Part shown: positions 35,561 to 38,859 of the stretch, piece after piece | How positions within the stretch are numbered: the first letter of the stretch is position 1 | Layout of the letters: each line of letters opens with the position of its first letter | From: Chitinophagales bacterium 33-2 | GTDB lineage: Bacteria; Bacteroidota; Bacteroidia; Chitinophagales; Chitinophagaceae | Assembly: GCA_002050435.1 (NCBI GenBank) | Contig: MWYV01000045.1 | Location: 1-64,000, forward strand | Length of the DNA: 64,000 nt | Direction: 5' to 3' | The notes under the pieces: generated by a model | The model's input: the letters and a program-made list of their open reading frames with translations, nothing else | Told to the model about the DNA's origin: nothing | Databases searched by the model: none | Translations under genes and position numbers: made by a program

Positions 35561-36448
35561 ATGCAGGAATTTACAATACGTGATATAGAAAATCTTACAG
35601 GAATCAAGGCGCATACACTTCGGATCTGGGAAGTGCGCTACAAGATGCTCCGTCCGAAAAGAAAAGATAGTTTGCACAGGGTTTATGATAACGAAGATCT
35701 CAAACACATGCTGCGGGTTTCTTTTCTTTACCACAACGGTTGGAAAATTTCCAAGATCGCTTCATTAGATCCTGCCAATGTTGAAGAAGAGGTGCGTAAA
35801 GTTACCATGGTTACAGACGTCCCTTCAACATTTATCAATCAACTGCTGGAAGCAGCGGTTGATTTTGATGAATATAAATTCACAAAGATCCTGAACAGCA
35901 TAATTGCGTCAATAGGATTTGAAAAAACGATGACAGAAGTATGTTATCCCTACCTCACCAAATTGGGTCACCTCTGGTCAACCAATAATGTAATTCCAGC
36001 CCAGGAACATTTTTCAAGTTATATGGTGCAGAACAGGGTTATTTCAGAAACGGAACAACTTGCTGTAAAAGGGAAAAAACCAGAAATCATTTTACTCTGT
36101 CCCCAGGGAGAATACCATGAACTTCCATTGCTGTTCATCAATTACCTGCTCAAAAAAAATGGATGGGGCACATTGTACCTCGGAGCCTCGGTAAGTTTAA
36201 AAGAACTATCAGAAGTCGTTGCAATTCCGGGTATCCGTTACATTTATATTCACCTGATCACAAACTTTACAGGTTTTGAACTGCAAGAGCTTATGGAAAG
36301 AATCTGCACCTCTTACCGTGATAAAGAGATCATTGCTTCAGGAAATGGTTTCCGGTTGTTGCAAAGAAGTTTTACCAACCTGACCGTATTGTTGAATGAT
36401 GCAGCTATTTATTCGTTTGTACGCAGAGATCATTTGGGAAGTACATAA
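35561..36448 (+). CDS. MerR-family regulator with CarH/LitR-like cobalamin-binding half
   Basis: The 295-residue protein joins a MerR winged-helix DNA-binding domain (FTIRDIENLTGIKAHTLRIW, 4-23) to a C-terminal half like the light-sensing CarH/LitR regulators. A W-x9-EH motif (Trp139, Glu149, His150) marks the helical bundle that cradles adenosylcobalamin. His186 in QGEYHELPLL corresponds to the lower axial ligand in the ExHxxG motif, although the last Gly is Pro here. GWGTLYLGASVSLKEL continues the B12 fold. By analogy it would repress in the dark and release DNA in light. No carotenoid genes adjoin it. The 3' end overlaps the convergent response regulator by 19 nt. Confidence 0.85.
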   Translation: MQEFTIRDIENLTGIKAHTLRIWEVRYKMLRPKRKDSLHRVYDNEDLKHMLRVSFLYHNGWKISKIASLDPANVEEEVRKVTMVTDVPSTFINQLLEAAVDFDEYKFTKILNSIIASIGFEKTMTEVCYPYLTKLGHLWSTNNVIPAQEHFSSYMVQNRVISETEQLAVKGKKPEIILLCPQGEYHELPLLFINYLLKKNGWGTLYLGASVSLKELSEVVAIPGIRYIYIHLITNFTGFELQELMERICTSYRDKEIIASGNGFRLLQRSFTNLTVLLNDAAIYSFVRRDHLGST

Positions 36449-37590
36449 AGCCGGATATCTTCCTTAGTAATGCCTTTCCCGGAGAGGATCACCAGTCGTT
36501 CCACCACGTTTCTTAATTCCCTGATGTTTCCTGTCCAGTTGTATTCCTGAAGCAATTTCAGCGCATCATCCGAAATCATTTTTCTTGAAATGCCATAGTC
36601 TTCACATATATCATCCAGAAAACTTTCTACCAGCATGGGAATGTCTTCCCTTCTTTCATTTAAAGAAGGCACATGAACAAGAATGACACTTAACCGATGG
36701 TAAAGATCGAGTCTGAAGGTCTTTGCTTCCACTTCTTTCATCAGGTCTTTATTGGTGGCTGCGATCACTCTTACATCAACAGTGATATCCTTATCGGCGC
36801 CAACCCTGGTGATTTTCCCCTCCTGCAATGCCCGCAATACCTTGGCTTGTGCATTCAGGCTCATATCTCCTATTTCATCCAGGAAAAGCGTACCGCCATT
36901 CGCCTGTTCAAATTTTCCAATTCTTTGTTTGATGGCTGAGGTAAAAGATCCTTTTTCATGACCGAATAATTCACTTTCAATCAATTCTCCTGGAATCGCC
37001 GCACAGTTAACTTCCACCAGTGCATTTCCAGCACGGTTGCTTTTTTCGTGAAGCCAGCGGGCAACCAGTTCTTTTCCTACTCCATTGTCACCGGTAATGA
37101 GTACACGTGCTTCAGTTGGACCTACTTTCTCTATAGTGTCTTTTATTTTTTTAACAGGCTCGGAGCCGCCGATCATTTCCTGCACCTTAAAGACACGACG
37201 CTTTAAGGTTTTTGCTTCATTAACCAGACTGTTTCTTTCCATCGCATTACGGATGGTGATCAGCAAACGGTTAAGGTCAGGTGGTTTTTGAATGAAATCA
37301 TAAGCGCCCTTTTTAACCGCTTCAACAGCCGTTTCAATATTTCCATGTCCTGAGATCATAATGATCGGAACATCGGGATTGGATTCAACAGCCCGCTGTA
37401 AGAAATCAATACCATCGATCTTGGGCATTTTAATATCACAAAGCACTACATCAAAGGTTTTCTCCTTAAATTTTCTCAGGCCTTCTTCACCATCAGAGGC
37501 TTCTTCAATTTTATATCCTTCAAACGAAAGTATTTCAATCAATGTTTTACGAATCGCCTTTTCATCATCAATGATCAGTATTGTGGCCAT
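36430..37590 (-). CDS. NtrC-like sigma54 response regulator lacking the DNA-binding domain
   Basis: The 386-residue protein has a receiver domain (phosphoacceptor Asp52 in VVLCDIKMPKIDG). An AAA+ sigma54-activator domain follows, with Walker A GDNGVGKE (167-174), Walker B TLFLDEIGDM (234-243) and the C-terminal WTGNIRELRNVVERLVIL. The loop that touches sigma54 reads GSFTSA (214-219) in place of GAFTGA. The protein ends about 15 residues after the AAA+ lid, so the Fis-type helix-turn-helix of NtrC is missing. It may act from solution on sigma54 holoenzyme. No partner kinase is adjacent. Confidence 0.9.
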   Translation of the reverse strand: MATILIIDDEKAIRKTLIEILSFEGYKIEEASDGEEGLRKFKEKTFDVVLCDIKMPKIDGIDFLQRAVESNPDVPIIMISGHGNIETAVEAVKKGAYDFIQKPPDLNRLLITIRNAMERNSLVNEAKTLKRRVFKVQEMIGGSEPVKKIKDTIEKVGPTEARVLITGDNGVGKELVARWLHEKSNRAGNALVEVNCAAIPGELIESELFGHEKGSFTSAIKQRIGKFEQANGGTLFLDEIGDMSLNAQAKVLRALQEGKITRVGADKDITVDVRVIAATNKDLMKEVEAKTFRLDLYHRLSVILVHVPSLNERREDIPMLVESFLDDICEDYGISRKMISDDALKLLQEYNWTGNIRELRNVVERLVILSGKGITKEDIRLYVLPK

Positions 37591-37656: not shown

Positions 37657-37685
37657 AAAAAAAAAGGCCGGATAGAAATCCAGCC
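37657..37685 (-). terminator. Strong intrinsic terminator upstream of the NtrC-like gene
   Basis: On the minus strand an 8-bp stem GGCTGGAT/ATCCGGCC (one G-U pair) has a 4-nt loop and is followed by nine Ts. It lies between the promoter at 37721-37751 and the regulator gene. Confidence 0.85.
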
Positions 37686-37715
37686 TCGTGTAAAATCCAA
37701 TATCCTATGAAAAAC
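37657..37715 (-). ncRNA. Candidate small RNA (or attenuated leader), about 59 nt
   Basis: A near-perfect promoter (37721-37751) is followed about 30 nt later by a strong terminator (37657-37685), with no room for an ordinary gene. The predicted transcript would start near 37715 and carry a short unstructured 5' part (including CATAGGATATTGGATTTT) before the terminator hairpin. It lies between pdhB and the NtrC-like gene, both on this strand. It could be a free small RNA or a premature-termination leader for the regulator, whose ATG is 67 nt further on. Confidence 0.5.
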
Positions 37716-37720
37716 CGAGA

Positions 37721-37751
37721 CAAAGATGTGGTCTATATTTCAGATTTCAAA
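37721..37751 (-). promoter_or_regulatory. Bacteroidota-type promoter for the small RNA
   Basis: On the minus strand TTTG (37748-37751) and CATCTTTG (37721-37728; one mismatch to TAnnTTTG) are separated by exactly 19 nt, the expected spacing for the Bacteroidota primary sigma factor. Confidence 0.6.
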
Positions 37752-37830
37752 ACTTATTTTAAAATTTCTTTAAGAAAAATTGAACAATTGATAATGAATC
37801 TTTTATGTCGTTTATATAAATAAACAAATA

Positions 37831-37851
37831 AACCCGCAACTGGTGCGGGTT
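37831..37851 (-). terminator. Terminator hairpin after pdhB
   Basis: A 7-bp stem AACCCGC/GCGGGTT with a 7-nt loop lies 22 nt after the pdhB stop. The T-tract on the minus strand is weak (TATTTG); on the plus strand it reads GGGTTTTAT, so it may work in both directions. Confidence 0.65.
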
Positions 37852-37872
37852 TTATAAAAAGTTTCAATAGAA

Positions 37873-38859
37873 TTACTTGTTCATGTACATAACTTCCTTT
37901 ACCAGCTTTACAGTTCTTGGCACATCGGGAAGGGCTGCGGCCACCAGGTTGGGTGCATAGTGTAAAGGAGCATCGGCAGCGGTGATCCTACGGATGGGCG
38001 CATCCAGGTAATCAAAGCCTTCTTTCTGGATCCTGTAAGTAATCTCGGATGAGATGGAAGCAAAAGGCCATTGTTCTTCAACGATCACCAAACGGTTGGT
38101 TTTCTTAACGCTTTCAAGAATGGTCATCCAGTCCAGCGGACGGATGGTTCTAAGATCAATCACCTCCGCACTTATGCCTTCTTTTTCCAGCTCCGCCGCA
38201 GCTCCCAGCGCTACTTTCATCATTTTATTAAAAGAAACAATGGTTACATCATCACCCTTTCGCTTAATATCCGCTTTACCCAGTTCAATATAATATTCCT
38301 CTTCAGGCACTTCAAACTTCTCGCCATACATCACCTCGCTTTCCATAAAAACCACAGGGTCTTCTTCATACCGAATGGCCTGCTTCAATAATCCTTTGGC
38401 ATCATAACCATTGCTTACAGACACCACTTTTAAACCGGGAATGTTCGCATACAAAGATTCAAATGCGGTGGAATGCTGCGCACCTAATTGGCCAGCAGAG
38501 CCATTCGGCCCACGAAAAACAATAGGACAAGAAATTTGTCCCCCACTCATAGCCAGCATTTTTGATGCGGTATTCAGGATCTGGTCCAACGCCAATACTG
38601 CGAAATTCCAGGTCATGAATTCCAGTACAGGACGTAAACCATTTTGGGCGGCACCTACCCCAACAGCGGTAAACCCTAGTTCGGAAATTGGCGTATCAAT
38701 TACCCGCTTCGGCCCGAATTCGGCAAGCATACCCTGGCTCACCTTGTAAGCTCCATTGTATTCAGCCACTTCCTCCCCCATTAAAAATACGCGCTCATCC
38801 CTGCGCATTTCTTCGTTCATGGCTTCACGGATGGCTTCGCGAAATGGTATTTGTCTCAT
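37873..38859 (-). CDS. pdhB: Pyruvate dehydrogenase E1 component, beta subunit
   Basis: The 328-residue protein is the beta half of a heterotetrameric E1 of the 2-oxoacid dehydrogenase group. It has the start FREAIREAMNEEMRRDERVFLMGEEV, shown here in part as FREAIREAMNEEM (5-17). It continues with KRVIDTPISELGFTAVGVGA (50-69) and QLGAQHSTAFESLYANIPGL, and has a C-terminal transketolase-type domain (VIVEEQWPFASISSEI). It needs an alpha subunit and a lipoylated E2, neither of which is in the window. Branched-chain E1-beta is a close alternative, though the short length and wording favour pyruvate. It has its own -7 element and terminator. Confidence 0.88.
   Translation of the reverse strand: MRQIPFREAIREAMNEEMRRDERVFLMGEEVAEYNGAYKVSQGMLAEFGPKRVIDTPISELGFTAVGVGAAQNGLRPVLEFMTWNFAVLALDQILNTASKMLAMSGGQISCPIVFRGPNGSAGQLGAQHSTAFESLYANIPGLKVVSVSNGYDAKGLLKQAIRYEEDPVVFMESEVMYGEKFEVPEEEYYIELGKADIKRKGDDVTIVSFNKMMKVALGAAAELEKEGISAEVIDLRTIRPLDWMTILESVKKTNRLVIVEEQWPFASISSEITYRIQKEGFDYLDAPIRRITAADAPLHYAPNLVAAALPDVPRTVKLVKEVMYMNK

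Follow-up and report, generated by a model that had tools for sequence, protein, structure and literature searches.

A putative multicopy small RNA family of Chitinophagaceae whose conserved 5' seed is complementary to gldK and PorG-like translation starts

A short intergenic unit in the window (the whole stretch of 64,000 nucleotides that was analysed) probably encodes a member of a multicopy family of trans-acting small RNAs, the seed of which would pair at the start codons of gldK and of PorG-like genes and block their translation. Control by small RNAs in the Bacteroidota is best known from Bacteroides, and the copies described here appear, from comparison of their sequences, to form an apparently undescribed multicopy family of the Chitinophagaceae; searches of the open-access literature turned up no report of this family, nor of small RNA control of gldK. 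The gene family itself, the invariance of its seed, the covariation of its stem and its complementarity to start codons were all computed, and since translation of gldK, a type IX secretion gene, and of the PorG-like genes, which encode an outer-membrane protein, begins at sites that match the fixed 5' end, the RNA probably tunes their production.

Anatomy of the intergenic unit

The intergenic stretch in question lies on the minus strand between pdhB (pyruvate dehydrogenase E1 beta; 37873..38859, minus strand), the product of which scores 493 bits against NCBIfam NF006667 (cut-off 321), and a gene for an NtrC/NtrX-like sigma54 response regulator (36430..37590, minus strand) that matches the Pfam domains Sigma54_activat and Response_reg; both neighbours are syntenic in relatives. 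A promoter, a 5' part, a linker, a hairpin and a U9 tract follow one another in this stretch, at coordinates that were checked, and the TTTG, the 19-nucleotide spacer, the CATCTTTG element and the U9 reported in an initial annotation of this DNA were all located on that strand. The -33 TTTG (37748..37751, minus strand) corresponds to a Bacteroidota-type promoter and is equally placed, as TTTTG or TTTG, in several copies from the genus; 19 nucleotides separate it from the -7 element CATCTTTG (37721..37728, minus strand), which is kept as (G)CATCTTTG in the copies between pdhB and ntrC, the consensus over all copies being TAnnTTTG-like.

The small RNA gene is placed at 37657..37716 (minus strand, about 60 nucleotides), on the grounds of the limits of the conserved block in relatives (positions 157-216 of the intergenic query), the promoter spacing, the terminator and the fold. 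Its 5' end is predicted at or near 37716 (GG), where the RNA would begin with GGUUUUUCAU; the initial annotation had proposed a transcript of about 59 nucleotides starting near 37715, an estimate that is slightly amended by the beginning of the conserved block at 37716. An invariant, A/U-rich and single-stranded 5' seed of 24 nucleotides, GGUUUUUCAUAGGAUAUUGGAUUU (37693..37716, minus strand), defined by its conservation across copies, is followed by a short linker (37688..37692, minus strand), the place of which is taken in other copies by a variable A-rich linker of ACG type. Next comes the terminator hairpin (37664..37687, minus strand), with 10 pairs and a UUCU loop, which is indicated both by the fold and by covariation in relatives, and then the U9 tract of the intrinsic terminator (37657..37665, minus strand), with a T run also found in the copies of relatives. 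The near-perfect terminator described earlier was borne out in its hairpin and its U9, and its stem is corrected from 8 to 10 pairs; the separate hairpin that had been assigned to pdhB was likewise recovered by hairpin prediction, at 37830..37852 on the minus strand.

A 62-nucleotide unit folds at -16.7 kcal/mol (z -3.3), which beats 199 of 200 shuffles, and its centroid structure consists of the hairpin alone. Terminator-like sites are enriched in the surrounding region (12 between 36400 and 39600, versus 2.9 in shuffles). The bare promoter pattern, when allowed one mismatch, occurs at chance level across the 64-kb window (15 matches versus 16.4 expected), and the case for a small RNA gene therefore rests on conservation. 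An antisense open reading frame on the plus strand, running across the seed, would enter the promoter region, which varies among copies.

Distribution, conservation and setting of the copies

Of 98 genomes searched with the intergenic stretch as query, 47 gave matches (own genome included), and the matches listed, bar one, fell within query positions 100-227 and were centred on 145-216, that is, on the -7 box and the 60-nucleotide unit. Within the Chitinophagaceae, 96 of 147 genomes, representing 65 of 100 genera (own included), carry between 1 and 10 seed matches at no more than two mismatches, and 51 lack the seed pattern at that threshold; the reversed pattern, used as a control in these genomes, gave a single hit. 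Among the 150 seed matches listed from this search, 126 were exact; the remaining 24 include 12 that depart from the seed in the last base only. A scan of named genomes identified at least 119 stretches with the seed, and the named records among the matches listed include Chitinophagaceae, Ferruginibacter, Niastella, Flavihumibacter, Puia, Cnuella and Flavisolibacter, together with other Bacteroidota and unclassified MAGs. Viral contigs contained no exact match to a 22-nucleotide seed stretch, and phage and plasmid records yielded no match.

The window strain has three such places, of which the two further ones are 96% and 78% identical to the intergenic stretch; in the latter (contig C34:1494-1548) the seed is decayed and the hairpin is good-looking. 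Tandem pairs of copies, about 130-200 nucleotides apart, were observed at five loci (L027, L076, L079, L149 and L150), the seed of one partner sometimes being diverged. At another site (L286, G002:C1:3076559) the other strand reads GGCTTTTCATAGAATATTGGATGTTACACCGGGC, which is probably a diverged copy missed by the exact pattern. One apparent match, in an uncultured Bacteroidales genome (L057:4120, minus strand), proved to be a translation start, that of a small lipoprotein gene, with a sequence exactly complementary to the 22-nucleotide seed core; that genome contains no other exact match to the seed core and one site with three mismatches. The locus was rejected as a small RNA copy, and was removed from the counts of neighbours, promoters and folds.

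Each of seed positions 1-24 is at least 0.98 conserved over 153 aligned places, which comprise 152 small RNA copies and the false lipoprotein locus (the latter being absent from the exact-seed set); because an exact 22-mer had been used to retrieve most of the aligned loci, the mismatch search in Chitinophagaceae provides the less biased figure for conservation. The linker and hairpin are variable, with 123 distinct hairpin stretches in 144 exact-seed copies. A hairpin below -8 kcal/mol stands downstream of the seed in 99.3% of 147 copies, as against 16.8% of block-shuffled sequences, and a T run is present in 143 of the 147. In 37 copies chosen for diversity, both sides had changed in five of six inner pairs of the stem, and the covariation score of 0.357 (versus 0.175) was reached by none of 500 shuffles and was lost when the pairing partner was slid; 89.6% of the cells in that alignment are paired, the pair formed by columns 37-50 being unpaired in 19 of the 37 copies. 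The initial annotation had looked to the Chitinophagaceae for compensatory stem changes beside a conserved 5' region, and had made its case depend on conservation of promoter and hairpin in relatives; conservation of both, and the compensatory changes, were found.

The promoters of the copies differ from one another. A rough sorting of 151 copies by pattern gives 92 that have only a TAnnTTTG-like -7 element and 39 that belong to none of the classes considered, while an upstream TACC-N-GGTAT palindrome is added in 11 (with more by eye) and ECF-like promoters take the place of TAnnTTTG in 9. The palindrome, in the form TACC(C)-N-(G)GGTAT(TG) and about 30-50 nucleotides upstream of the RNA start, was noted at L055, L062, L066, L083, L102, L112, L118 and others; several of the copies bearing it sit at gldN-uvrC and recA-side positions, and it is possibly the operator of some transcription factor. 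Boxes reading TGCAACGTTT...GTCTAA or ACAATTTATT...CGTTA precede the copies at L027:1704, L096, L131, L140, L150 and L154, and we take promoters of the TGCAACGTTT/ACAATTTATT type to be of an ECF-sigma-like class.

The order pdhB-sRNA-ntrC, in constant orientation, is retained at 19 of the 21 loci that best match the intergenic query (of these 21, the genus supplies 16 and other genera 5), as well as in several named records. A second syntenic position, gldKLMN-sRNA-uvrC, in which the copy lies directly behind gldN, was observed in 12 of 15 genus flanks around such copies; at locus L123 GldK, GldL, GldM and GldN each exceed their NCBIfam cut-offs, and 25 homologous proteins encoded upstream of copies across the Chitinophagaceae are read, from sequence, as GldN. 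Judged by sequence, RecQ and RecA also appear to recur beside copies. In 49 of 152 copies the upstream gene shares their strand and the downstream gene is convergent; 31 lie between two same-strand genes, and 34 overlap a mechanically called open reading frame.

These observations separate the two readings that the initial annotation had placed side by side, an independent small RNA and a leader that halts transcription before the NtrC-like gene. Genome comparison strongly supports the former: the terminator has been conserved jointly with the 5' part, both following a promoter, the stem shows covariation, and the unit occupies many unrelated loci. The latter, to which may be joined the idea of a second terminator for pdhB, can point to a unit that stands upstream of the NtrC-like gene, in the same direction and in conserved order; as a general function it nevertheless finds no support and is extremely unlikely, because copies at many unrelated loci, with other neighbours and often with a convergent downstream gene, do not suit an ntrC leader, because pdhB has its own terminator, and because the conserved block comprises the -7 box and the 60-nucleotide unit, not the remainder of the ntrC leader. 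The multicopy, dispersed character of the unit and its tandem pairs at some loci might also suggest a DNA repeat or mobile element without RNA function, but this is almost certainly wrong given a covarying stem, promoter-like elements kept in register, orthologous positions across genera, and the results obtained with viral contigs and with phage and plasmid records.

Complementarity of the seed to translation starts

The complement of the seed reads ...AATCCAATATCCTATGAAAAACC and resembles the region of a start codon. Pairing energies (in kcal/mol throughout) were computed with target accessibility ignored, and orthologs, being related by descent, are not independent observations. Two seed strings were employed: the 30 nucleotides of the window copy for the scan of its own genome and for the SusC, PorG-like, pdhB and ntrC runs, and a 31-nucleotide string with the family's commoner linker for the scan of 1,022 starts and for the gldK/L/M/N, paralog, wider-regulon, 19-family and background runs. 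Background energies averaged -10.6 over 1017 starts, of which 4 reached -19.4 or lower and 12 reached -18 or lower, gldK starts included. Control starts of related loci gave means of -9.0 for pdhB and -10.2 for ntrC (14 starts each), and the absence of notable complementarity in the latter is a further argument against the leader reading. When mean start energies were compared for 19 gene families with at least 6 members, the PorG-like genes ranked first (-19.3) and gldK second (-16.6), the remaining 17 ranging from -14.5 (gldM) to -8.9.

The predicted PorG-like target was the second-best gene in the own-genome scan (L228:9574, 326 aa), and an 18-mer search of the genus, made independently, hit orthologs of it twice. 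The outer-membrane protein that it encodes is DUF6089/PorG-like, reaching 78 bits against the NCBIfam PorG model (cut-off 130) in the window strain, and of 18 genomes from the genus, 17 contain an ortholog at E <=1e-45 (own included). All 16 readable starts (that of L337 being left out) pair strongly, at -17.3 to -25.3 over positions -40 to +25, and over -35 to +25 their mean of -19.7 compares with -11.0 for shuffled seeds (0 of 300). Three of the 16 had first been noticed through complementarity; the other 13, which form a held-out set, have a mean of -19.4 and range from -16.4 to -22.8. Dinucleotide-shuffled versions of the PorG-like starts average -12.5 (sd 0.76), the lowest of 100 being -14.8. 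A 40-nucleotide window, slid along these genes, reaches a trough of -18.8 exactly at the start codon, with values of -7 to -12 beyond -40 to +20. The DUF6089 paralogs are not complementary to the seed (7 starts, -9.4 to -15.3, the start of L343 being doubtful), and one of them, L344, passes the NCBIfam PorG cut-off yet has no seed complementarity.

Evidence for gldK originated in the start-region scan, in which three gldK starts fell within the 25 best of 1,022 and constitute the discovery set; the gldK starts scored are those of relatives of the window strain. The mean over 26 readable starts is -18.05 (L113 and L347 represent one gene twice, with the same sequence), and over 22 starts, with the three discovery genes and the duplicate removed, it is -17.9. 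Twelve starts from the genus, none of them from the discovery set, average -19.4, as compared with a mean of -10.3 for shuffled seeds (sd 2.0; lowest of 200, -17.8). In 14 starts from outside the genus the complementarity weakens to a mean of -16.9, and the starts of L078 and L142 reach only -11.7, though both loci carry the small RNA. Other starts of the same operon gave -12.1 for gldL (n=30) and -12.7 for gldN (n=34), and the value for gldM, -15.4 (n=17), blurs the contrast within the operon. In a typical pairing, AUGAAAAACC, located at codons 1-4 or 3-6, faces nucleotides 1-10 of the RNA, and CCC and CCAAUA, which directly follow the TATATTTG promoter box, face nucleotides 11-20; AUGAAAAACC encodes M-K-N in gldK, and constraint on the protein thus contributes to the complementarity.

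Broader searches returned several null results. Across 343 starts of the own genome, start regions as a class paired no better with the seed than with its shuffled versions, and a search of that genome at up to three mismatches to a 19-mer recovered only two copies and a single site that lacks a start codon. The word TATCCT-ATG-AAA was found 8 times in the 1,022 starts, against a permutation mean of 9.6, which represents no enrichment. Near-complements of an 18-mer gave 191 hits in 18 genus genomes (the sum of the table), versus 48 for the reversed pattern, about 80 of the hits being copies by estimate from the matches listed. From those matches, with G012, G015 and part of G006 left out, 40 stretches with 39 ATG-keeping sites and 5 more gave 44 such sites (the probable diverged copy L286 included); 14 of the 44 lie at gene starts, versus 8.7 expected from a start-region model that assumes 4200 genes per genome, and a wider regulon is unsupported by this count. 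Two further genes of the own genome, L237 and L238, with N-termini MKNPDTVIKVAIADDH... and MTAQIIKVAIADDH..., are among the top ten of the 343 starts in seed complementarity; read by eye, these N-termini appear response-regulator-like.

Starts of susC were also scored, because FopS, a small RNA family of Bacteroides, pairs with such starts. Thirty-six SusC starts in three genomes showed no complementarity above background (mean -9.8 versus -10.7, p = 0.96), and SusC/TonB genes were ruled out as targets.

Proposed role and relation to known small RNAs

In the reading that we prefer, a housekeeping-type promoter would give rise to an RNA of about 60 nucleotides, in which a fixed and unstructured 24-nucleotide seed is joined by a short linker to the hairpin of an intrinsic terminator. 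In a small number of mRNAs, among which those of gldK and the PorG-like/DUF6089 genes are the best-supported candidates, the seed would pair with the 5' leader and the initial codons, and by covering the start codon it would impede ribosome entry and lower output, by analogy to the action of FopS-10 on susC as described in excerpts of PMC11697453. Paralogs under different promoters would allow several signals to feed one seed. Transcription, repression, the signals and a protein partner of the RRM/RbpB type are what we infer here; the genome of the window strain encodes five RRM_1 proteins, the class to which RbpB belongs, and an RbpB-like partner is thus possible. Since gldK heads gldKLMN, the operon for the motor and ring of the type IX secretion system (T9SS), and one syntenic copy lies directly behind gldN, the family might more specifically form a dedicated post-transcriptional layer of control over T9SS and gliding in Chitinophagaceae, with joint repression of gldK and PorG-like genes, a feedback loop through the copy behind gldKLMN, and varied promoters (housekeeping, palindrome-associated and ECF-like). 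This extension is a tentative one, to which we give slightly less than even chances.

A genuine multicopy small RNA family could instead act mainly elsewhere, on other mRNAs or through binding of an RRM protein, with both complementarities minor or incidental. The seed is more invariant than a single pairing seems to need, the gldK starts of some genomes are weak, and the five RRM_1 proteins recall the binding of the FopS 5' part by the RRM-1 protein RbpB (excerpts of PMC11697453); such a role is nevertheless unlikely, as two unrelated gene families display complementarity centred on the start codon, in held-out orthologs, and against both shuffle and gene controls. Membership of the FopS family itself, with repression of SusC-like transporters, is very unlikely. 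It would accord with the multiple copies, the canonical promoters and the start-complementary 5' end, and the 5' ends of the window RNA and FopS are indeed alike (7 of 20,000 shuffles were equally good), but the similarity is not significant once the anti-start UUUUUCAU part is set aside (2,873 of 20,000 shuffles), so that descent from a common ancestor and convergence on AUGAAAAAC starts are indistinguishable. The window RNA also fails the Rfam model RF04319 (16.7 bits, gathering cut-off 56), no genome among 19 from the strain's genus and order (own included) has a hit above that model's cut-off, and the 36 SusC starts stand at background. In 14 control genomes, three responded to RF04319, Bacteroides ihuae among them, and one exceeded the cut-off. 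The Rfam scan of the locus found no family over its cut-off, and the top matches (Trp_leader, MicC, SorY, Arrc14 and others) look like chance hits to a hairpin followed by U residues.

The degenerate pattern TTTTTCATRGN{0,2}TATTNGATTT occurs in 21 genomes out of 395 from the Bacteroidota, and the control gave no hits. The 21 comprise 11 of 14 sampled Chitinophagaceae, all in the GGATATTGG form; five genomes from two other families in the FopS form, where six of seven tested loci pass RF04319; and five in other families with a single hit each, all of which fall short of that model's cut-off. The singletons from other lineages (L178-L182) do not match FopS, and a strong hairpin with a T run was observed only in L180.

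If the preferred reading, of start-codon pairing at gldK and PorG-like genes, is correct, the Bacteroidota would possess a second, separately recognisable multicopy small RNA family in a large lineage, the seed of which hardly varies across 65 of the 100 genera sampled. Its match to the head of the T9SS operon would suggest that paralogous small RNAs that block start codons are a general strategy of the Bacteroidota for surface proteins, and the family offers a directly testable candidate regulator of T9SS and gliding.

Among known systems, GibS of Bacteroides thetaiotaomicron, as presented in excerpts of PMC11697453, has two seeds, R1 and R2, and resembles the present family in that R1 pairs to translation starts; it differs in being a single gene, in its two seeds and in its promoter class. 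Rfp18 of Flavobacterium psychrophilum, in the portions of PMC9723704 drawn upon here, is likewise a Bacteroidota small RNA, conserved in its genus and with predicted targets among secreted proteins; by its description, unlike the present family, it pairs through a stem-loop and its targets are metalloproteases and an adhesin, and two target mRNAs fall, instead of rising, when it is deleted. The closest parallel is FopS, described in excerpts of PMC11697453 as a family of paralogous Bacteroides small RNAs (Rfam RF04319, BTncRNA_FopS) that targets SusC-class starts in sugar uptake, its member FopS-10 lowering susC translation. The two families share many paralogs per genome, a length of about 65-70 nucleotides (in FopS), a canonical Bacteroidota promoter, and a layout of 5'-terminal anti-start seed, linker and terminator hairpin, and both seeds hold GUUUUUCAU..G..UAUUrGAUUU; the several paralogs per genome, the canonical promoter and the intrinsic terminator are found in the present family, with not every copy's promoter fitting. 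The present family is distinguished by a 2-nucleotide insertion in the seed, another linker and hairpin, a separate lineage, and predicted targets in gldK and the PorG-like genes in place of SusC. It is, on sequence grounds, a family that resembles FopS in layout, and it is not classed as FopS.
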